NCBI GenBank assembly: GCA_015272395.1
Contig: JACYLQ010000016.1
Coordinates: forward strand, 1-53,384
Reading direction: 5' to 3'
DNA: 53,384 nucleotides
Source: Calothrix sp. C42_A2020_038
Lineage (GTDB): Bacteria > Cyanobacteriota > Cyanobacteriia > Cyanobacteriales > Nostocaceae
In this document: positions 1,715 to 44,709 of the stretch, piece after piece
Position numbering within the stretch: position 1 is the stretch's first letter
Layout: the number at the start of each line of letters is the position of its first letter
The notes under the pieces: generated by a model
The model's input: only the letters and a program-made list of their open reading frames with translations
The model's database searches: none
What the model was told of the DNA's origin: nothing
Position numbers and translations under genes: made by a program

Positions 1715-4700
1715 TTAGTTCACTTTAAACTTACTCGCACTCGCTAATAATTCTTGTGCCATTTCGGAAAGTTGATTAAAGACGGTGGTAAGATTACTGG
1801 CTTCTGCTGAAGTTTTGTTCGCTATTTTCGCGACGTCTTTCATCGATGCTGTTACTGATAATGATTGCATCATTTGTCCTTGTGTTGCATCAGTAATTTG
1901 TTGTAATAGCTTACTAATCTCCGCAGTTGCGACTACAATTGCATTCAAACTTTGTCGAGTTTGATTAACTAAGCTTGTACCCTCGACTACTTGCTGAATA
2001 CCTACTTCCATTGCTACAGCAACTTCACCTGTTTCTTCTTGAATTTCTTGGACGAGTTTTTCGATTTCGATGGTTGCTGCTGCTGACTGACGGGATAGTG
2101 AACGTACTTCGTCTGCAACTACTGCAAATCCCTTGCCGTATTCTCCAGCACGAGTTGCCTCTATTGCCGCATTGAGCGCAAGTACGTTAGTTTGGGTTGC
2201 AAAGTTACTAATCAGGTTTACAACCTTCGAGATTTTCTGCGAGGATTCTGAGAGACGTTTGATCTTTTTACTTGTTTGCGAAACTGTCTCGCGGATTCCT
2301 TGAATCGCTTCGACTGTGAGGTTCATTGCTTCGTCACCCGACTCAACAGTTTGATTGGCTTGTTGTACTGTTACTTGTACTAACTCAGCATTACTTACAA
2401 CTGCCTGAGTTGAATCGGCCATCTGCTGAATTTCACCTAAAGCTTCGTTAATTTCTTTTGATTGTTGCTGTGCTAAGGTTGTCAGTCCAGAAAGCGATGC
2501 ATTACTTTGTTTGGAAGTTAATGCAACTTGTTGTGCTGCTGCTTGTACTTGAACGACTATTTGACGCAATGCTTGCAGTGTATTGTTATAAGCATCAGCA
2601 ATTGTACCTAGTTCATCTTCACTAATTGGCGCCCGTACTGTTAAGTCACCATTTAATGCTGGACGAACAGCAGAAAGAAGTTGCATTGCACCTTTTTGTA
2701 AGTTTTCCTTAGCTTCTTTCTCGCGCTCTACAGCTTCATTAACTTGCTTTGATTGTGCTTGAAGTTGCTCTAAATACTCGGTTTGTTGCAATGCAATACC
2801 TAATTGGTCGCCAATACGTAATAGTAAGCTAACTTCAGATTCTTCCCATTCGCGCGAACCGGAGTTTTCAAATGCTGCCAACATACCCCAAAGCTTTGAA
2901 CCTTGGAAAATTGGAACAATTGCATAAGCTTTGGCTTGGTATTCATCTAGTACTTCGGTGTAACAAGATGGGAAACCAGCATTGTGAATATCGGGTCGAA
3001 CATATGCTTTACGGTTACGAAGTTCACCACCCTCTGTAGCCTGTAAGTAAGTATCTGCACTGACTCCACTAGTTGCAAATAAGCTGCGCATACTATAGCA
3101 ATTACTGATACTTTCCTGTAGGCGAGGAATTCTATTTTGCTTTTCTATAAGAGATATCCAACCATCGCCAACTGATTCAGCGACAAATAAACCACTCCAA
3201 TCAGGATTAAAACGATACACTGTGACTCGATCAGTTTTGAGAAGCGCGCGTACTTCTCTTGTCGCAATATTGAAGATAGACTGCATGTCCATCGCTTGAC
3301 GAATTCTATCGATGATGGTGGCTGCATCCCGATCACGTTTTGCGGCTTTTTGAATTTCTTGATTTTTTTGTTGCAATTGATGCAAATACTCGACTTGCTG
3401 CAATGCTACTCCCAATTGGTCGCTAACTCTTAACAACAAGTTAACTTCTGTTTCTTCCCACTCGCGCGGGGCGCTATTTTGATACGCAGCTAGTAATCCC
3501 CAAAGTTTATCTCCCTGAAAAATCGGCACAATTACATACGCACGAGCTTGATACTGCTCCAGTATTTGAATGTGGCAGTCAGCATGACCCATTGCGTACA
3601 TATCATTAGCAACAAAGTATTCACGGTTACGATATCGTCCACCTTGAGTTTCCTGCAAATATGTATCAGCCCAAACTTGTCTGCCATTAGCCCCAACTAA
3701 ACGCACCCAGTTACCATTGACTGACTCAGCAACAAACTCACCACTCCAGTCTGGTTTGAACTGGAAGACAACAACTCGGTCTGCATTGAGCAATGAACGT
3801 ACTTCTTTTGTAGTAGTGTTAAAAATAAAATCAATATCAAGCGATTGACGAATTTTGTCAATGACTGTACTTGCGGAAGAATCTAACTCGGCTAGTTTGT
3901 GGGCTTTTTGTGATTGTTGCTGTAGTTTCTCGAATGTCTCTGCTTGTTGCATTGCAGCTCCTAAGAGTGCTGCAACTTGTTCCATCATCGTCACCTCAAA
4001 AGCTTCCCATTTACGAGGCGCCGAGTGCTGATAGCTAGCTAAAAATGCCCAAAGCTTATTTTCTTTGAAAATAGGAACCGTCAAATAAGCTTTGGCTTCA
4101 AATTGCTCTAAAAGCTCCATATAACAGGGAGGAAAACCTGCCTCACTAACATCATTGACGACAAAACTAGTCCTTTGCTGATAGCGACCACCTTTATTGT
4201 CTTGCAAGTAGGTATCTTTTTGTCTATACGCATCAGTAAGACTACGAATTGAATCACAGTGACCATTTTCTTTCAAAAGTGCTTGGTCAATTTCCTCTTT
4301 ATTTCTAAAAGGAATCCAACCTTTAACCATAGATTCGGCAATAAACTCACCACTCCAATCAGGATTAAAACGATAAACAACGGTACGGTCTGCCTCTAAC
4401 AACCGACGAACTTCTGCAACTGTTGTTTGAAGAATACTGTCAAATAATGAGATATCAGTAACTGTTGTGGTTAGAGCTTCACCTATTTTACGAGTCAAAG
4501 CAATCAAACTTTGCTGACGTTGAGCAGTGTTTGCTAATTGTTTTGATTGTTCTTGTGCTTGTTGCAATGTCTCTACTTGTAAGATTGCAACGCCAAAATT
4601 CACTGCAAATTGATTTAGTAATTTAGCTTCCCAATCTTGCCATTCACGGGTGCTAGAGTTTTGATAGGCAGCCAACAAACCCCACAGCTTATTGCCTGCA

Positions 4701-5695
4701 AATACAGGAACTATGACGTATGCTTTAACTTCAAACTGTTCGAGAATATCGATGTGGCAGGGAGCATGTCCCATTTTGTAAATATCATTGACTACGAAGT
4801 TCTCGTGGTGCCTGTAGCGTCCACCTTGAGTTTCTTGGAGATGAGTGTCTTCCCAAACAGTCTTAATGTCGTTACCAACCAAACGCATCCAACCAGGAGC
4901 CACAGATTCAGCAACAAATTCACCGCTCCAGTCAGGGTAAAAACGATAAACAGCTACTCTATCACATTGCAGCATTTGCCGAATTTCTTGAGTAGTAGTT
5001 TGAAAAATTCGGTCAAGACTTGATGCACGTTGGATTTTGTCAATAACTTTCACAAAAGACTGATGCTCTTCCTCTTGACGCTTAAGTTGCTTTTGGTATT
5101 CAAATTCAACAAGTTTGTTTTTACATTCTCCACAAAGCTGTGAAAGTAAGGTAATTTCCGATTCTTGCCAAGAGCGCGCGGTTGTACAACTATGAACTAC
5201 TAATAAACCCCAAATATTTACTTCGGTTAGAATAGGTAAACTTAAGCTTGATTTAACCTGGAACTTGTCGAGCAATTGTATCTGATATGCACTCAGTTCA
5301 TCTAAATTCTCCTGAACTTGAATGATTGTAGGCTCTAAATATTCTGCGCTTGTTTCTAAACCGAATAAAACAGATGGTACAGTTTCATCATAAGCAGGTG
5401 TCCATTTGTTGGTTCTAGATTCAGCAATGACAACTCCAGAATCTTTACTGATGAAGCGATAAACAAGAACACGGTCACATTCTAGCTTTTCCCGGATTTG
5501 TTGTACAAGAGTTGTAGTTAAAGTATTAATATCTCTTACATGAGATATTGCTGACGCGATGCGCGCGAATTTCTGGCGCCATATCTTGAATTGTTGGTCG
5601 GTAATATCAGAAGTGTTTGAGTTAGTTAATTCTGATGGCAGAATACTTTCTGTTTGGTTATGTCCGTTTTCCTGATTTTGATACACACTAGTCAT
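1715..5695 (-). CDS. pixJ: Methyl-accepting phototaxis receptor with five GAF domains (PixJ/PtxD-like cyanobacteriochrome)
   Basis: This 1326-residue protein starts at an ATG preceded by AGGTG. Order: GAF1 (about 40-205), GAF2 (220-385), GAF3 (405-605), GAF4 (620-780), GAF5 (800-985), a HAMP-like segment (about 1010-1060) and a chemoreceptor signalling domain (about 1060-1326). The signalling tip reads [16 protein letters not shown]. No transmembrane segment is evident. GAF1 lacks a bilin-attachment Cys. GAF2 (APCHIDIL) and GAF4 (ADCHIQIL) have the canonical Cys-His. They also carry VWEDTHLQE and VWADTYLQE, which match the Trp and Asp of red/green cyanobacteriochromes such as AnPixJ GAF2. GAF3 (PPCYMEL) and GAF5 (PSCYTEV) have Cys-Tyr plus a longer insert with a second Cys ([16 protein letters not shown]). 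It probably reads light colour and signals through CheW/CheA to type IV pili. Chromophores and photocycles are inferred. Confidence 0.92.
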
Positions 5696-7490: not shown

Positions 7491-8672
7491 CTATACAGGT
7501 TGTACGCTACTACCAGAAGCTGTATAAATATATTTACGTACAACAGCCATCACTTTATCCGCAGCTACTGGTTTGCTAATAAAATCTGTGGAACCAACAA
7601 CCTTGGCACGTACTCGGTCTAACAAACCATCGCTACCAGTCAGGATAATTATCGGTGTATAAGCAAAAATCGATACTCTACGCAATTGCGCGCAAATTTC
7701 GTAACCGCTAGCCACAGGCATAACCAAATCTAAGAAAACAAGGTCGGGTTTATGCTCAATTAAGATTGGTAAAGCTTGTAAAGGGTCTTGAATGTTAACA
7801 AATCTAAACCCATTAGAAATGAGTATCTGCTCTAGCATCTGACATACTTGCGGGCTATCATCGACGCAAGCAATTAATGGGCTAGAAGAATTTGTTTTGG
7901 TTGCTGTTGAATTTGGTGGTAATTTTTGGCTAGTCTTAAGCGGTAAGTCTGGAACTTCTACTAATTCAATAATTCCCTTGAGTATGTAAGGAAGTAGCGA
8001 GCGAGCCACAGGTAATATAGTTTGTTTCATTTTGACCGCTAAATCCCGGAGGGTATATTTTCCGTTCATTAACGTCACAAAATTCTTGTAAACTGCTGGA
8101 CTAACAGAAGATTCCAATTGCTCAGGTCTTCTTAAAATCGGTGCATGGTCGGGGTAAAAATTAGCCAAACCTGCATCTGACCAACTTTTCCACGTCTCTT
8201 GCATGAACTTTAACGACATATCTGCGCTCGTAAAGCTCATTGGGGTTTCCAAAATTACATCTTGGTTACGGTCAGTGATGACAGGGGTAAAGTTAGCTTG
8301 CTGTGCCAGGTCAAATAACAATTCCGCAATTGTGCTTTCGACAATTGAGTTGATTTGCTCGCGTTTGATTTTTTGCTTTTCGTGGAAGATTTCAAGGAGA
8401 CGATAATCCCAATAGTCTTTTTGAATATCTTCAGCACGTAGTTGAATCTTCTCAAGATCAACTTCTGGACAGTAATGGTTCATGTGTCGGCGCCAGCGGC
8501 GAAACGGGTGCTTTCCTCCACTAGCCCAGACAATTCTTCCTAGACGATAGTAGAAAGTCCATCGATGTCCTTTGGCGGTTGTGATGTCTAACTTTCCACT
8601 GTACTGTAACAAAGTACAAGTTTTAAATTCATCAAGTAAATTACCTGATGCCATCATAGAGGGATGAGTCAT
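7491..8672 (-). CDS. pixG: PatA-family response regulator (DUF4388 + receiver; PixG/PtxA/HmpA-like)
   Basis: The 393-residue protein has an N-terminal DUF4388/PatA-type domain (about 1-250; FKTCTLLQYSGKLDI, FYYRLGRIVWASGGKHPFRR). The C-terminal receiver spans about 265-385 (IACVDDSPQVCQMLE, phosphoacceptor Asp in VFLDLVMPVASGYE, Lys in FISKPV). Proteins of this layout include PatA and PixG/TaxP1/HmpA, and they open chemotaxis-like operons in cyanobacteria. It is first here, with CheY, CheW, MCP and CheA genes following in the usual order. The ATG at 8672 has AAAGG close upstream. The context argues for a phototaxis or hormogonium-motility role rather than heterocyst patterning. Confidence 0.88.
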   Translation of the reverse strand: MTHPSMMASGNLLDEFKTCTLLQYSGKLDITTAKGHRWTFYYRLGRIVWASGGKHPFRRWRRHMNHYCPEVDLEKIQLRAEDIQKDYWDYRLLEIFHEKQKIKREQINSIVESTIAELLFDLAQQANFTPVITDRNQDVILETPMSFTSADMSLKFMQETWKSWSDAGLANFYPDHAPILRRPEQLESSVSPAVYKNFVTLMNGKYTLRDLAVKMKQTILPVARSLLPYILKGIIELVEVPDLPLKTSQKLPPNSTATKTNSSSPLIACVDDSPQVCQMLEQILISNGFRFVNIQDPLQALPILIEHKPDLVFLDLVMPVASGYEICAQLRRVSIFAYTPIIILTGSDGLLDRVRAKVVGSTDFISKPVAADKVMAVVRKYIYTASGSSVQPV

Positions 8673-36603: not shown

Positions 36604-37770
36604 TTAGTAATGGGTGCGCGCGTGTGTTGGCTGTGACTTGAGCTGGGAAACGAGAGAATAAGCCATTTTTACTGCTTGCCAAAGCAATTCAGGCTCGTCC
36701 TCTAGGCAGATGCTTTTGACATTGGTGTTACTCACCTCCCTCTGTTCTAATTGTTCGAGAACCGATGACAGCAATACACGGGCGTAACTGCCGTATGCAA
36801 TACCAGAGATTTTGGACTTGGGACTAGAAGATACTAATTCCAAATCCTTTTGTGGTAATCCATTCATGTGCAAAGCGAAATCGCTTAACATTCCCATTGC
36901 CTTTAACTTGGCAACGGTATAGCTATTTGTGCCTCCTGCTAACTGCACATATCCTGGTAGATTTGCTGCCAACACTTTTTGCCCTAACTTGATTGTTGCA
37001 ATAGTGGCACCGTCTCCAATATCACCGCTCATTGGACGACCATCAGTTTGCCATATCACATAGGGAACACTCGGAGCCATTAATTCGTATAGGGCATGTA
37101 AATAGTCAATTAAATTTTCGCCATCAGGACAACTGACAGCAACCAACTTCAACTGCTCTACGTGCGGTTCAATTGATTGCCACAATCGCTTGAATTCTGT
37201 CAAACGTCCAACTTTTGTATGTATTTCTACAGCATCTACTCCTGTTGACAGTACCAATGGCGCTATTGCTCCTGGCGACAATACACATGAACTTGTATAA
37301 ATTATATCATACGGACAGATAGGGACACAACGTCCACAGCCATAACATTTTTGTGATATTACACCTGAAAAATTATTTGAGTGCTGGTTAAAAACGATTG
37401 CTTGAGCGGGACATATTTTCTCACAAGGTCTTGAGCAAGTCGAAGGACATTCGCTTGGATTGAATTCGGCTTTGCGGAAGTGCGGGTCTTCTCCGTCGTT
37501 TAGGCTGACCATCAAAAAAGGCGTTTTATATTCACACAATGAATTTGGTCTTCGAGAGTCAATAGCCAAACTCGAAGCAACTTGGAGCGCATCTTGCGCT
37601 GCTGAGATTACAGCAGGGTCTGCTGCCACATCGATACAGTCGGCACCTGCCAAAGCATAAGCTAGGGTCAAACTTCTAACAGATGGCAGATGCTGGAAAC
37701 TGGCTCCGCAGATCAGCTTGAACCAGTGACCTTCTTTAAGGGAACGTAAGGGGTTAAACAAATCAGTCAC
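36604..37770 (-). CDS. ldpA: Circadian light-input iron-sulfur protein LdpA
   Basis: The 388-residue protein matches LdpA, which feeds redox/light information to the cyanobacterial clock. Two [4Fe-4S] motifs lie at about 107-150: CPSTCSRPCEKICP and CYGCGRCVPICPYD. The N-terminal segment FNPLRSLKEGHWFKLICGAS and the (beta/alpha)-rich C-terminal half are typical of the family. The start is GTG at 37770-37768, giving MTDLFNPLRSL. An ATG overlapping it is out of frame and stops at once. The gene lies just upstream of the R3H ATPase gene on the same strand. No photoreceptor domain is present. Confidence 0.93.
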   Translation of the reverse strand: MTDLFNPLRSLKEGHWFKLICGASFQHLPSVRSLTLAYALAGADCIDVAADPAVISAAQDALQVASSLAIDSRRPNSLCEYKTPFLMVSLNDGEDPHFRKAEFNPSECPSTCSRPCEKICPAQAIVFNQHSNNFSGVISQKCYGCGRCVPICPYDIIYTSSCVLSPGAIAPLVLSTGVDAVEIHTKVGRLTEFKRLWQSIEPHVEQLKLVAVSCPDGENLIDYLHALYELMAPSVPYVIWQTDGRPMSGDIGDGATIATIKLGQKVLAANLPGYVQLAGGTNSYTVAKLKAMGMLSDFALHMNGLPQKDLELVSSSPKSKISGIAYGSYARVLLSSVLEQLEQREVSNTNVKSICLEDEPELLWQAVKMAYSLVSQLKSQPTHARTHY

Positions 37771-37895: not shown

Positions 37896-39296
37896 CTACT
37901 GCTCTGGTTGTTGAACCGGGATTTCGATGACAAATTCGGCCCCTTGACCCAATGATGATTGGCATGTCAAAGTTCCCTGATGTTTTTGCACTATAATTTG
38001 ATAGCTAATTGATAAGCCTAGTCCAGTACCTTTACCTACAGGTTTTGTTGTAAAAAAAGGGTCGAACAAACGTGTATACGTAGATTCTTCAATACCAGGG
38101 CCATTGTCTCTAATACAAATTTGGGCTGTATTTCTACTTGTTAGTCGAGTTTGAATTAAAATTTGTGGAACTAAGGTACAAAAGTTAGAAATCGGAATTT
38201 GGGAAGCTGATGTGTAATTATTATTGAGAGTAATATCTTGATTTCGGGATACGACTGTGCCTTCATGTGATACCATATTTCCTCCGAGGCGCCATGCTCC
38301 ATTTCCCATTTCTAAAGCGTCGATTGCATTATTCAAAATATGCATAAAAACTTGATTTAGCTCACTCGGATAACATGTAACTGGAGGTAAAGCGCCAAAA
38401 TGTTTGATGACACTAATCATAGGGCGATGAGCAGTTTCTTTCAGGCGATGCTCTAGCATAACTAAAGTACTGTTGATACCTTCATGAATATTCACCGACT
38501 TCATCTGAGCTTCATCTAATCGAGAAAAGTTTTGTAATGATAGTACTATAGTTCTAATTCGTTCTGCGCCTCGATACATAGCACCCATTAAGCTTTGCAA
38601 GTCATGAATGACAAATTTGAGGTCAATATCTTTAGTCGTTGCTTGAAGTTGTGGTGTCGGATTAGGATATTCCCTTTGGTACATTTCTACGACTTTAATT
38701 AAATCTTGAATATATTCATTTGCGTATTGAAGATTACCATAGATAAAACTGATGGGATTATTAATTTCGTGTGCAACTCCTGCAACTAATTGACCCAAAG
38801 CGAACATTTTTTCGTTTTGTATCTGTTGGACTTGAGCAGCTTTTAATTCATCAAAAGCTTTTTGTAATAACAAGTTTTTTTCTTGCAATTCGCTGTGTAA
38901 CAAACGTAAATTTATTTGATTTTCAATTCGTAGTATAACTTCGGCGCCGTGAAAAGGTTTACTAATATAATCAGCACCACCTACATCAAAAGCTTTAACT
39001 TTATCTAAAACATCATCAAGGGCACTAATAAAAATGACTGGTATTTGACTAGTTTTATTTTCTGCCTTGAGTTGTTTACATACTTCATAGCCATCCATAC
39101 CAGGCATATTGATATCAAGCAAGATTACATCAGGTAAGAGCATTTGACAAGCTGTTAATGCCATTTTGCCATTTAATGCTTTACGAACTTCATAGCCTTG
39201 CGCTGTTAACATTGCTGATAACAGTCGCAAATTGTCAGGTGTGTCATCGACAACTAATATATTTGCTTTATAATTATGATTTTGCTCTAAAAGCAT
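37896..39296 (-). CDS. Receiver-histidine kinase
   Basis: The 466-residue protein has an N-terminal receiver (about 12-130: [18 protein letters not shown], Asp61 in [15 protein letters not shown], Lys in YISKPF). A coiled-coil linker (130-165) follows. HisKA has the His in [20 protein letters not shown], and the HATPase region shows [19 protein letters not shown] and [21 protein letters not shown]. An extra stretch of about 45 residues inside the HATPase domain ([16 protein letters not shown] and onward) is unusual. There are no membrane segments. Its receiver is a close paralogue of that in the GGDEF-EAL protein encoded just upstream, with the phosphoacceptor at the same residue number. This suggests duplication and possibly shared input. 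Confidence 0.92.
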
Positions 39297-39522: not shown

Positions 39523-41358
39523 TCACCATTGTGGATTAGTGGCAATAAAGTCAAGAACATCTTCTTGTTTGAGGGGTTTAGAGAATAAAAATCCTTGAGC
39601 GAGGTCACAGTTGAGAATACGTAATTGAGCTAATTGTTCGGGGATTTCAACACCTTCAGCAATTGTACGCATTCCCATAGAATGAGAAATGCCAATCATC
39701 GCAGGTACTAATCCCATATTGTCTTGATTGTCTTGCATTCTCTTGACAAAAGATTTATCAATCTTCAGCGCATTTAATGGAAAACTGTGAAGATAGCTTA
39801 AAGAAGAATAGCCCGTGCCAAAATCATCAATAACAAGCTTAAAATTTCGTTCTTTTAGCTGCTGTAGAATACCTCTAACTATATCGTTATTTTCCATAAT
39901 TACACTTTCTGTAATTTCTAAATCTATATTGCAAGAATTAACTTGTGTTTCAGAAACAATGTTATCAATAATTGATGCTAATTCTGGATATGAAAATAAT
40001 CGTGCTGATAAATTTATATTGATAGAAATATCTTGCGAGAAAGCAGAGTATTCTTGCCATATTTTCAGTTGCTGACAAGCGTTTCTAAGTATCCAAATAT
40101 TGATTGGATAAATCAGACCTATTTCTTCTGCTGTAGGTATAAATTCGGTTGGTGGAATTAGTCCTCGTGTCGGGTGTTGCCAACGTACAAGTGCTTCAAA
40201 ACCAGCGATTTTACCTGTAGCAAGTGAAATAATAGGTTGATAGTAAATTACAAATTCTTGCCTTTCAACAGCTCGACGTAGGTCGTTTTCTAATTCTAAA
40301 ATTTGGATAGCTTTGAAATGCATATCTGGGTCAAAAACGTGATAGCGCGCACGGCCAAGTGATTTTGCTCGATACATCGCGGTATCAGCATCACGCAACA
40401 AATATTCAGCTTTTTCATAGTTATTATTACCCCAACTGATACCGATACTCGCATTCATAAACACTTCATATCTTGACAATTGAAATGCTAGTGATAATTT
40501 TTGTAAAACGCTTTCGGCAACATCAATAGCCATATTCATACCAGTGATATTTTCTAATAAAATAGCAAATTCATCACCACCAAATCTAGCTAAAGTATCA
40601 AAAGGACTTAATAATCCTTGAATGCGGCGGGCGATAGCAATTAATAATTCATCTCCAACAAAATGACCCAGCGAATCATTAATTATTTTAAAACGGTCAC
40701 AATCTAAAAACAGAACAGCAAACTGAAAGCTAGAATCTTGTTTTGCCCGACTAAGCGCTTTTTCAAGTTGCCGTATGAACAAAACGCGATTTGGTAATCC
40801 AGTTAATGAGTCATGCAAAGCAATGTCAAGAAGCTGACTTTGGAGTTCGCGTCGAGAATTTATCTCTATTTGTAGCTTTTGCATTGCTTCTTCTAGCTCT
40901 TTAGTACGCTTCTTGACTCGTTGCTCTAACTCGGTATTAAGTTTTAAAATTTCCAAACGGGCTTCTCGTAAGGCGATTTGATTTTGTACTCGCACTAAAA
41001 CTTCTTCAAATTCAAACGGTTTTGTGATATAATCTACCCCACCCACCCGAAAAGCTTTTACTTTGTCAAAAACATCATCGAGGGCGCTCACGAAAATTAC
41101 CGGAATATCAGTAGTTTTATCCCAATTTTTCAAACGATGACAAACTTCATAACCGTCAATTTCTGGCATCATGATATCGAGCAAAATTAAGTCAGGTAAA
41201 ATAGTTTGGCACGCAGTTAAAGCCATTTGCCAATTTAGAGCTTTACGAACGTTGTATCCTTCTCTAATTAAAATCGCCGATAAAACTCGTAGATTATCGG
41301 CAGTATCATCGATAATCAAAATATCTTTTTTTTGGTTAATCAAGCTGACATCATTCAT
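39523..41358 (-). CDS. Receiver-GGDEF-EAL cyclic-di-GMP regulator
   Basis: The 611-residue protein has a receiver (about 12-130; Asp61 in LILLDIMMPEIDGYE), a coiled-coil (130-180), a GGDEF domain and an EAL domain. The GGDEF domain (about 183-345) has the intact motif RFGGDEFAI, so diguanylate cyclase activity is plausible. The EAL domain (about 355-605) has FEALVRW, ININLSARLF, LEITES, DDFGTGYSSL and EGVE, so phosphodiesterase residues are also kept. Phosphorylation of the receiver probably sets the balance. The start is ATG at 41358. It precedes the receiver-kinase gene on the same strand with a gap of about 226 bp. In cyanobacteria c-di-GMP commonly governs motility and surface growth, which fits the phototaxis genes elsewhere in the window. 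Confidence 0.94.
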   Translation of the reverse strand: MNDVSLINQKKDILIIDDTADNLRVLSAILIREGYNVRKALNWQMALTACQTILPDLILLDIMMPEIDGYEVCHRLKNWDKTTDIPVIFVSALDDVFDKVKAFRVGGVDYITKPFEFEEVLVRVQNQIALREARLEILKLNTELEQRVKKRTKELEEAMQKLQIEINSRRELQSQLLDIALHDSLTGLPNRVLFIRQLEKALSRAKQDSSFQFAVLFLDCDRFKIINDSLGHFVGDELLIAIARRIQGLLSPFDTLARFGGDEFAILLENITGMNMAIDVAESVLQKLSLAFQLSRYEVFMNASIGISWGNNNYEKAEYLLRDADTAMYRAKSLGRARYHVFDPDMHFKAIQILELENDLRRAVERQEFVIYYQPIISLATGKIAGFEALVRWQHPTRGLIPPTEFIPTAEEIGLIYPINIWILRNACQQLKIWQEYSAFSQDISININLSARLFSYPELASIIDNIVSETQVNSCNIDLEITESVIMENNDIVRGILQQLKERNFKLVIDDFGTGYSSLSYLHSFPLNALKIDKSFVKRMQDNQDNMGLVPAMIGISHSMGMRTIAEGVEIPEQLAQLRILNCDLAQGFLFSKPLKQEDVLDFIATNPQW

Positions 41359-41973: not shown

Positions 41974-44709
41974 ATGAAATCTGCTGATAGCTTTCAAAAC
42001 GTTCAGCAATCTCCTGAGCAAGAGAGTTTGCTGTACCGAATTACGGACATAATTAGGCAAGGTGTAGAACTACAAGCGATTTTAGATGCAGTGGTTGTCG
42101 AGGTTCGTAAATTTTTACAAACCGAGCGAGTCATGGTTTACAAGTTTGATGACTCCTACAATAGTGAGGTTATTGCCGAGTCAATAGAGCAGCAGAGGTT
42201 CCCATCTTTACTGAGGTTACATTTTCCAGCATCAGATGTTCCATCGGAAGCGAGAGAAATGTTGCTCACAGTTCGTCAGGGATTAATTTTAGATATCAAA
42301 AGCGGTAAGGTTAGTTTATTGCCACTCGATTTTGAACCTGAATTACAAGCTTCAGCCAATATTCAGTACCGCACTGTTGAGCCTTGCGATGTTGAGTATT
42401 TGAAATCAATAGGGATACAATCATCACTAGTTTTGCCAATTCGATACCAAAAGTCTATTGAACCTGGGTCTCAAGATGATTTGTGGGGATTATTGGTATC
42501 TCACTACAGTCGCTCAAGGGCTATCTCAAAGCGTGAATTGCAAGTTTTACAGCAATTTGCGAACCAAATGTCAATTGCTATTACCCTTCAAAATTCATTC
42601 TTACAAGCGCGCGTTGAGCAAAGGCGCCAAACAATTATTAATCAAGTTATCACTCAATTACATTCGTTACCAACGATTCAACTTCAAGCAGCACTTGAGA
42701 CAACAGTTACTGCCCTATCAGGTTGTGGGGGTAGAATGTATATTTATGAAACAGGTGATCTATACCAGGTTGGAGAGCAACCATTAGCATCCTCACCAAA
42801 TTCAGTTATTGAAGAACATCCATTCTGGCAACATTGGATGGAAGAATTTAGAAAAGATAGTGTTTGGGCAATCACTGATATTTACGCAGAACCGGAATTA
42901 GGATTTTTAACAACAGCATTTCAAGATACGAACATTCGTGGATTACTGGTAATGCCTCTTGGCTACTATCAAAATTTTATCGGTATTGTCAGTATTTTCC
43001 GCAATGAGGATAACACAAAGATTTTATGGGCAAGACAACGCCAACCTAATCCTTTAAACCAGCAACCGCAGACTTCTTTTACATGGCGCCAAAAAAGACA
43101 AGGAAAAGCACCAGCATGGAAACAAGACGAAATCACCCTGGCTCAGACACTCGCATATCACATTTCGATGTCGATACAACAAGATTTGATGTATCATAAA
43201 TTACTGCCTTTTTTGAATATCGAGCAGCAAGTACAAGTACAAACCTCCGAGTTAGAAAAATCGTTGTTAATTACCAACGCAATTCGATTAATTAGTGAAC
43301 AAATTCGTAGTTCTCTAGATTTAACAACTACTTTACACACCATTGTTCGTGAAGTACGCAAGATATTGAACACAGATAGAGTACTAATTTACCAGTTTAA
43401 TGACCCAGTTGGCTGTTCTGATGGAAAGGTAATTGTCGAAGAAATTAATGGTAACTGGCAATCAACTTTAGCTATCACAGTTCCATCAGGGTGCTTCCCA
43501 GATAAAAGCGTGCGTATGCTTTTTGAAGAGGGGGTAAGAGTAATTAATAATGTTGCAACAGCTTCGCTAAGTGCTTGTCATCGAGAATTTTTAGAAAGCT
43601 TGCAGATACAAGCAAACTTGATTGTACCGATTCATATTAGCAAAAAACTTTGGGGTTTGCTGATTGCTCATCAGTGCGAGGCACCGAGATTATGGCATGA
43701 TGACGAAATAGAGCTTTTACAACAACTAGCTGACCAAGCTGCAATTGCAATTCAACAAGCGGAACTTTACGAACAAAGTCGCGCATCTGAAGCTGAAGCC
43801 AAAAGTAAAGCAATGCAGTTGGGACAAGCACTTTACGATTTACAACAAACTCAAACTCAGTTAATCCAAAATGAAAAAATGTCAAGTTTGGGGCAGTTGG
43901 TAGCAGGGATAGCACATGAAATCAATAATCCGATTAATTTCATCTATGGCAACTTATCTCACACTATCGAATATACTCAACAACTGCTCGAATTATTAAA
44001 ACTATATCAGCAACAGTGTCCATCCAACAATTTGATTGAATCTAAAATCGAAGAAATGGATTTGGATTTTATTACGGCTGATTTACCTAAAACCATATCC
44101 TCAATGCAAGCAGGGGCTGAACGTATTCGCTCGATTATACTATCTTTACGAAATTTCTCGCGTCTGGATGAAGCGGATATGAAGCCCGTTGACTTACACG
44201 AAGGCATCGATAACACTTTATTAATCTTGCAACATCGTTTCAAATCTACCGTTGATTTTCCAGGTATCCAAGTTATAAAAAAGTATGGAGAATTGCCATT
44301 GGTTGAATGTTACGCTGGACAAATTAACCAGGTATTTGTGAACATTCTGGGCAACGCGGTTGATGCACTTATTGAAAAGTTTAAAAACAAAGATATTTCC
44401 CAAAACAGTATAAATACTACCAATATTACCCCTCGAATTGTTATATCAACAGCAATATCTACCAAAGGTAAATCAGTAGTTATACGTATTGCCGACAATG
44501 GAAATGGAATTCCCGAAGATGTCAGGAAGCGAGTTTTTGACCCGTTCTTCACTACTAAAGACGTAGGCAAAGGCACTGGACTAGGTCTGGCAATTAGCTA
44601 TCAAATTATTGTCGAAAAGCATGGTGGTGTAATAAAATGTGCATCTAAACCAAATCAATACACAGAATTCATGATTGAAATCCCTCTTAAACAAGTTATT
44701 ATGCAATAG
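41974..44709 (+). CDS. Photosensory histidine kinase: knotless-phytochrome-like module + cyanobacteriochrome-like GAF + kinase
   Basis: This is a 911-residue soluble protein. GAF1 (about 20-210) is phytochrome-type, with [10 protein letters not shown] and Cys138 in [12 protein letters not shown] at the bilin-attachment position. The next domain (about 225-415) looks like the PHY/second GAF of Cph2-type phytochromes. It has a tongue-like stretch, PQTSFTW .. KAPAW, related to PRxSF..W..PW. GAF3 (about 435-600) is cyanobacteriochrome-like: Cys535 in [10 protein letters not shown], Cys507 in SGCF, then QANLIVPI and [11 protein letters not shown] coiled-coil leads to HisKA ([19 protein letters not shown]) and a HATPase ([31 protein letters not shown]). 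The start is ATG at 41974. The stop is 33 bp before an ABC-2 permease gene with its own GGAGG. Bilin binding is inferred from motifs. Confidence 0.9.

Follow-up and report, generated by a model that had tools for sequence, protein, structure and literature searches.

Proteins that join a knotless phytochrome to a cyanobacteriochrome in a single chain are already known. Synechocystis Cph2 is described as a four-colour sensor in which a knotless phytochrome is combined with a blue/green cyanobacteriochrome (PMC5812497), and All2699 of Nostoc sp. PCC 7120, which has a different third GAF, as a photoreceptor whose GAF1 is red/far-red and whose GAF3 is red/orange, switching from 645 to 595 nm (PMC6696110). 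For SyB-Cph1, His139 is reported to help hold the pyrrole water and Arg101 to anchor the propionates, and the R101A variant to bind less bilin while retaining photoconversion (PMC11264168). Here we describe a related gene from Calothrix sp. C42_A2020_038, found on contig JACYLQ010000016.1 of assembly GCA_015272395.1 (positions 1 to 53,384, forward strand; this whole stretch of 53,384 nucleotides is the window), which encodes a three-GAF sensor histidine kinase. A first-pass annotation had read the protein as a red/far-red-like phytochrome module plus a blue/violet-type cyanobacteriochrome GAF, each with an unusual residue at its chromophore site. This interpretation is right in outline, but its account of which features are unusual, and where, has to be corrected.

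The open reading frame (ORF) of 911 amino acids (aa) is intact, and Pfam assigns GAF, HisKA and HATPase_c domains to it, together with a PHY match at residues 322-403 that falls below the cut-off (features and coordinates are collected in Table 1). By these assignments the protein is a three-GAF histidine kinase of the All2699-type architecture, with GAF1, a tongue-bearing GAF2, GAF3 and a histidine kinase in this order, and it shares with All2699 the phytochrome type of GAF1 (the 6oza match). The third GAFs differ, that of All2699 being described as red/orange whereas that of the Calothrix protein is of the two-Cys type; a C10 adduct would not be expected in All2699 GAF3, because its dark state is the long-wavelength one. 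Cph2 is similar in carrying a knotless phytochrome and a cyanobacteriochrome in one chain and in its fold (4bwi). In the Calothrix protein, however, GAF3 follows directly after GAF2, and Pfam finds none of the GGDEF or EAL outputs of Cph2 in the chain, where HisKA and HATPase_c stand in their place. The kinase boxes AHEINNP, DNGNG, FDPFF and GTGLGLA are all intact.

We compared the protein with relatives gathered by similarity to it, namely 30 loci from 60 genomes and the best 80 of 438 named loci (Nostoc, Anabaena, Dulcicalothrix, Calothrix, Oscillatoria and others). These are its nearest relatives and not a random sample, and since the two fetches overlap the 110 loci (individual loci carry L numbers below) include near-duplicates. 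Cys507 of GAF3 is present in 104 of the 110 loci with the window counted and in 103 of 109 without it, 95 of these being distinct. The three cysteines 138, 507 and 535 do not vary across 21 aligned sequences (the Calothrix protein and 20 relatives, pre-selected for the CFP-type loop).

Judged by sequence and modelled fold, GAF1-GAF2 is by descent a PAS-less, knotless phytochrome module, as had been proposed. Residues 13-425 have their best PDB sequence match in the GAF-PHY region of SyB-Cph1 (8w26, E 1.3e-57), with All2699 GAF1 (6ozb, 6oza) below it and Cph2 (4bwi) further down. An AlphaFold model of residues 1-605, built from a 40-row alignment (mean predicted local distance difference test (pLDDT) 80.1, predicted template modelling score (pTM) 0.53, tongue tip below 50), is closest in fold to Cph2 4bwi and SyB-Cph1 8w26, at root-mean-square deviations of 6-8 Å. 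A GAF domain is followed by a PHY-like GAF2 with a tongue, and there is no PAS domain; the RIT helix and the PxxSF tongue are shared with SyB-Cph1, from which the protein differs in its additional third GAF. All motifs listed in the first-pass annotation are in place (PASDVP at 85-90, EPCDVEYL at 136-143 with Cys138, PQTSFTW at 365-371, SGCF at 505-508 and ACHRE at 534-538). The model places the tongue strands at residues 346-353 and 370-378, and its confidence is low at the tip that connects them. The tongue reads PQxSF instead of PRxSF, an Arg-to-Gln change that is common (63 of 95 relatives), and SyB-Cph1 itself reads PLISF; the tongue Ser is retained. The WAR motif has Arg in place of the Gly of WAG, which all 95 relatives carry.

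The expected bilin pocket of GAF1 is a mixture of kept and lost residues. Mapped on SyB-Cph1, the equivalents of Tyr54, Phe82, Asp86, Arg133, Cys138, Tyr142 and His169 are kept; Cys138 lines up with Cys138 of SyB-Cph1 and Asp88, in the DIP-type motif that here reads DVP, with its Asp86, and Tyr142 and His177 are likewise retained. The equivalents of Arg101 and His139 are gone, while all 13 relatives mapped alongside keep both. An Asp directly after the phytochrome Cys had been flagged as unusual, and indeed this residue is His in 92 of the 95 distinct relatives, Trp in one, a gap in two and Asp in none. The second propionate anchor, SyB-Cph1 Arg111, is Val in the Calothrix protein and Ile or Val in the relatives, so by this alignment the difference at Arg111 is not its own. 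GAF1 is, from these residues, phytochrome-derived by descent but without a functional hallmark, the pyrrole-water His.

Divergence of GAF1 goes well beyond the pocket. Of the columns with a conservation of 93% or more among the 95 distinct relatives, the Calothrix protein breaches 18 of 69 in GAF1 (residues 1-212), 10 of 48 in GAF2, 4 of 45 in GAF3 and 4 of 108 in the kinase, against leave-one-out medians of 1, 1, 1 and 2, respectively. Among 96 sequences it ranks highest in GAF1 and ties for highest in GAF2 with L106, which is second in GAF1 with 13 breaches and whose GAF1 looks damaged. Relative-rate comparison with the sister L002 gave means of 32.8 versus 8.5 unique changes in GAF1, with p<0.01 for 97 of 97 outgroup rows (these are interrelated, include near-duplicates and do not amount to 97 independent tests). 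The corresponding values were 13.9 versus 7.8 in GAF2 (p<0.01 with 1% of outgroup rows), and 13.5 versus 15.4 in GAF3 and 13.4 versus 12.6 in the kinase (p<0.01 with no outgroup row). Its terminal branch measures 0.675 in GAF1, compared to 0.191, 0.284 and 0.249 in GAF2, GAF3 and the kinase. Nonsynonymous divergence (dN) to L031 is 0.228 in GAF1, 0.159 in GAF2, 0.179 in GAF3 and 0.130 in the kinase, and dN to L003 is again highest in GAF1 (0.236). Synonymous divergence (dS) to L031 is 1.24, 1.07, 1.05 and 1.33 in the same order, values near or above 1 being close to saturation. GAF1 alone is clearly accelerated in this lineage, at the protein level. Sequencing error, a frameshift or a pseudogene was considered as the source of the divergence and rejected, given the intact frame, changes spread across the domain and a GAF1 dN/dS of about 0.2. 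Taken with the pocket residues, this makes it probable that the red/far-red module has been retuned or is failing.

GAF3 presents a different picture. It has the canonical Cys535, followed by His, and a second Cys 28 residues upstream, followed by Phe; the same spacing, counted on its sequence, separates the Cys of DPCF from that of ECH in TePixJ, which aligns to the GAF3 region. In a multi-GAF alignment with RcaE, TePixJ, PPHK, red/green references and GAFs from the Calothrix genome and from others, Cys507 falls on the DXCF Cys and Ser505 on the DXCF Asp, which bears out the dual-Cys assignment made earlier. The likeness to TePixJ and other DXCF cyanobacteriochromes thus extends to the GAF3 family, both cysteines, their spacing and the C-F and C-H pairs, and the difference lies in the Asp, which is Ser here. 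On its loop residues, GAF3 therefore falls outside the DXCF class as strictly defined. The PDB ranking points partly elsewhere, with 8k9o (E 1.2e-30, identical to the RcaE 7ckv sequence over the compared part) ahead of PPHK 6oap (1.3e-30), 8w26 (2.1e-28) and RcaE 7ckv (4e-28). RcaE and CcaS resemble GAF3 in having no Asp two residues before the second-Cys column (C-2), in a loop ending in FP and in a high overall score. Their signature, a Glu before the Cys507 column (C-1) and Cys-Leu at the canonical site, is absent: the Calothrix protein has Gly506, Cys507 and Cys535-His536, whereas 26 of 28 green/red-type rows have CL.

To place GAF3, GAF domains were collected (214), the window copy was removed and the remaining 213 were thinned at 80% identity, leaving 143; with 8 reference rows (that named NpR3784 being the engineered derivative miRFP670nano) and the window GAF1 and GAF3, the alignment comprised 153 rows. 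Removal of 19 rows (17 GAFs without the canonical Cys or plainly non-cyanobacteriochrome, L123_607 without the canonical Cys and L020_468 with its loop deleted) left 134 for a quick tree, of which 88 entered a careful tree. Both were built on 143 columns with the loop and Cys columns masked, and many of their forks are open. The Calothrix GAF3 lies inside a clade of CFP-type GAF3s, comprising 39 rows in the quick tree and 20 rows, with support 100/100, in the careful one. For the residue counts at C-2, membership of the clade was judged by whether Pro follows the CF pair, and one L193 row was taken out manually, which gives 39 rows, the same number as in the quick tree. Among 71 two-Cys rows, an acid at C-2 is found in 32 of 32 outside the clade (30 Asp, 2 Glu) and in only 6 of 39 inside. 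The basal branch (L109, L110, L019 and L026) keeps it; the other 16 rows of the clade form one branch (support 98/83), within which L104 again has Asp. Parsimony counts two changes of the C-2 acid on 52 two-Cys rows. Across 93 distinct CFP-type sequences, Asp or Glu stands at C-2 in 8, at C-1 in 59 and at neither in 29, the Calothrix protein (SGCF) included, while F508 is present in 82 and C535 in 92. The first-pass annotation had noted the loss of the DXCF Asp as unusual: the Asp is indeed absent, but 85 of 93 distinct sequences have no acid at C-2, with varied residues in its place, and on this tree the missing Asp is a mark of the GAF3 clade and not a peculiarity of the Calothrix protein.

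The C-1 acid of the clade aligns with the Glu of the RcaE EVFP motif, presumably a pyrrole contact and, as we take it, Glu217. The Asp at C-2 we take to be shared by phytochromes and DXCF proteins, and we assume for it the detailed role ascribed to it in TePixJ. In a scan for an acid elsewhere in GAF3 that might compensate where both C-2 and C-1 are without one, an idea that we set aside, the best column was 478, with Asp or Glu in 0.76 of the no-acid group versus 0.23 of the acid group, a figure uncorrected for kinship in a part of the alignment that is unchecked. In insert-Cys cyanobacteriochromes, variants of the Asp at the C-2 place are described as converting less efficiently, Glu being less affected than Ala (PMC5240096); the Asp-less clade would therefore have to manage differently. 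A second Cys of the DXCF type has been reported as reacquired in the XRG (red/green) lineage (PMC11284453). Titles and the opening parts of abstracts in one open-access library gave no description of an Asp-less CFP clade as a group or of a lineage-specific GAF1 change, and we do not claim that the clade is unpublished.

From the domains, residues, conservation, trees and rates set out above, we infer bilin binding, colours, photocycle and kinase control as follows. The reading we prefer, with a probability of about 0.5, is an All2699-type histidine kinase in which long helices connect two bilin sites and in which GAF3 would be the well-kept sensor and GAF1 the altered one. In GAF3, a bilin (phycocyanobilin or phycoviolobilin) would be fixed at Cys535, and Cys507 would add to C10 of the bilin to give a violet- or blue-absorbing state, which light would convert to a longer-wavelength state. 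The role of the C-2 Asp would in most clade members be taken over, probably, by the acid one residue later, mostly Glu; in the Calothrix GAF3 a different group would fill it, or none. Since GAF1 keeps its Cys, the DIP-type Asp and the tongue Ser, it probably still carries a bilin, but with the His of the pyrrole water and one propionate-anchoring Arg gone, its red/far-red switching should be altered, slowed or lost. Through these signals, light would control autophosphorylation by the conserved HisKA/HATPase unit. Several observations weigh against this reading. GAF2 too is above the usual level of breaches, and GAF1, by its dN/dS, is still constrained. Loss of the Arg101 equivalent alone need not break GAF1, since SyB-Cph1 R101A still photoconverts, and an Asp-less GAF3 might switch poorly, since Asp changes lower photoconversion in insert-Cys cyanobacteriochromes. 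Finally, a tree that forces the clade to group with the green/red rows is worse by 13.9 log units, yet the approximately unbiased (AU) test does not reject it (p=0.287).

If both modules were normal, with GAF1-GAF2 switching between red and far-red and GAF3 being a two-Cys switch of the blue/violet type, the protein would be a four-colour kinase like Cph2, a known four-colour protein; the three conserved cysteines and the retention of Asp88, Tyr142, His177 and the tongue Ser would fit, yet the loss of Arg at 103 and of His at 139, the change from WAG to WAR in the tongue and the acceleration of GAF1 leave this possible but doubtful. For the same reasons the "red/far-red-like" part of the first-pass annotation is less safe, while its pairing of module types stands. 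At the other extreme, GAF1 might no longer be a photosensor in this lineage but a structural or dimerising remnant, leaving GAF3 as the sole light sensor. That GAF1 tops all 96 sequences in breaches, with GAF3 and the kinase far less affected, would agree with this, as would the relative-rate result; with the bilin Cys, the DIP-type Asp, Tyr and His retained, a low dN/dS and an intact frame, we consider it unlikely. Less probable still is a GAF3 that works by green/red proton switching like RcaE or CcaS, a Val having become Cys; Cys507 would then form no C10 bond and the sensor would be green/red. The top PDB match, the resemblance of the relatives' xECFPDEY to QEVFPQEY of RcaE and the AU result lend it some weight, set against Gly instead of Glu before the Cys, CH instead of CL, the conservation of F508 and C535, and unconstrained trees in which the clade falls outside the RcaE/CcaS green/red rows. 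The simpler version suggested by the PDB ranking, a plain green/red GAF with a gained Cys, was set aside, as the clade falls elsewhere in the masked trees and has a basal branch that is acidic at C-2, as in DXCF proteins, although the AU test (p=0.287) does not reject the grouping. A more far-reaching proposal, which we also regard as unlikely, is that the xxCFP GAF3s are a separate two-Cys lineage performing C10 thioether photochemistry without the Asp, the acid having often moved to the RcaE-type C-1 place, and that the Calothrix protein, with neither acid, would add a new protonation-based phytochrome photochemistry through its His-to-Asp swap.

Table 1. Features of the photoreceptor gene and its neighbours in the window (residue numbers refer to the 911-aa protein).
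Feature	Positions	Strand	Remarks
Three-GAF sensor histidine kinase	41974..44709	+	911-aa ORF; ORF list, Pfam, PDB sequence matches
GAF1, knotless-phytochrome type	42013..42609	+	residues 14-212; RIT helix (RITD at 22)
Asp88 of DIP-type motif (DVP)	42235..42237	+	kept; SyB-Cph1 Asp86
Gly103, replacing propionate-anchoring Arg	42280..42282	+	SyB-Cph1 Arg101; Arg in 92/93 relatives
Cys138, expected bilin attachment site of GAF1	42385..42387	+	aligns to SyB-Cph1 Cys138
Asp139, replacing pyrrole-water His	42388..42390	+	SyB-Cph1 His139
GAF2, PHY-like	42610..43209	+	residues 213-412
Tongue hairpin	43006..43143	+	residues 345-390; WAR, PQTSF, PAW
GAF3, cyanobacteriochrome type, two cysteines	43261..43788	+	residues 430-605
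SGCF loop	43486..43497	+	Ser505 (DXCF Asp place), Gly506, Cys507 (43492-43494), Phe508
Cys535, canonical bilin Cys of GAF3	43576..43578	+	ACHRE
HisKA core	43888..43971	+	AHEINNP at residue 647
HATPase_c	44320..44691	+	DNGNG, FDPFF, GTGLGLA boxes
Receiver-GGDEF-EAL protein, divergent neighbour of photoreceptor gene	39523..41358	-	Pfam, flank comparison
Receiver-histidine kinase neighbour	37896..39296	-	Pfam, flank comparison

The relatives show further variation around this architecture. In the GAF1-GAF2-GAF3-kinase arrangement, the third GAF carries WxDxxL (red/green-like, XRG-like) in L023, L025 and L030 and is of the true DXCF type in L024 and L027, and these sequences suggest that lineages have swapped their third sensor. 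L101 has lost both GAF3 cysteines (PESFYDD, DSYREF) and has normal GAF1 motifs, the reverse of the Calothrix pattern. Seven relatives are shorter, at 752-780 aa (L057, L059, L071, L074, L084, L099 and L100), and the kinase box reads GVAQEI/GIAQEI in L057 and L059, GVAQEM in L084 and GVAHQI in L099 and L100; some may be inactive kinases because of these altered boxes. The genomes of L057, L071, L074, L084 and L100 also yielded a full-length copy.

The receiver-GGDEF-EAL neighbour is, from its gene position, a possible phosphotransfer partner of the photoreceptor kinase. As a conserved gene partner it was rejected, being found in only one of 64 long-flank loci (L031, Dulcicalothrix desertica). 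The receiver-histidine kinase neighbour matched in 59 of 64 loci, and was likewise set aside, as 11 of 12 rows inspected (all but L031) proved to be the photoreceptor's own kinase domain. A homologue of LdpA (light dependent period A) lies at 36604-37770 on the minus strand, separated from the photoreceptor by two genes, and an LdpA homologue is near the photoreceptor in L031 too. A promoter scan upstream of the photoreceptor found 4 candidates versus 2.7 (standard deviation 1.8) in shuffles, and no terminators. Bilin supply is plausible, since the same genome holds three bilin-reductase-family genes. On its contig C6, an RcaE/CcaS-type green/red GAF (L117/L141; FPAEVFP, CL) lies about 12 kb from two adjacent genes of this family. 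Elsewhere in the window, a gene at 1715-5695 (minus strand) encodes a chemotaxis-receptor-like protein of 1326 aa with GAF repeats and an MCP signal domain; of its four DTYL/DTHL-motif GAFs, two have an extra Cys-bearing insert before the motif (compare the insert-Cys cyanobacteriochromes). A receiver protein with a weak DUF4388 match is encoded nearby (7491-8672, minus strand), and we take the two genes to be a candidate part of a phototaxis-type locus.

To conclude, if our reading is true, the Asp-to-other and His-to-Asp exchanges that photochemists introduce by design already exist in nature, in one chain in which two bilin sites report to a single kinase. The Asp-less clade, which occurs in many Nostocales, would reveal whether the C10 thioether cycle depends on the DXCF Asp. 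Set beside its Dulcicalothrix sister, the Calothrix protein would in turn show how one colour of a dual sensor comes to be altered or lost.
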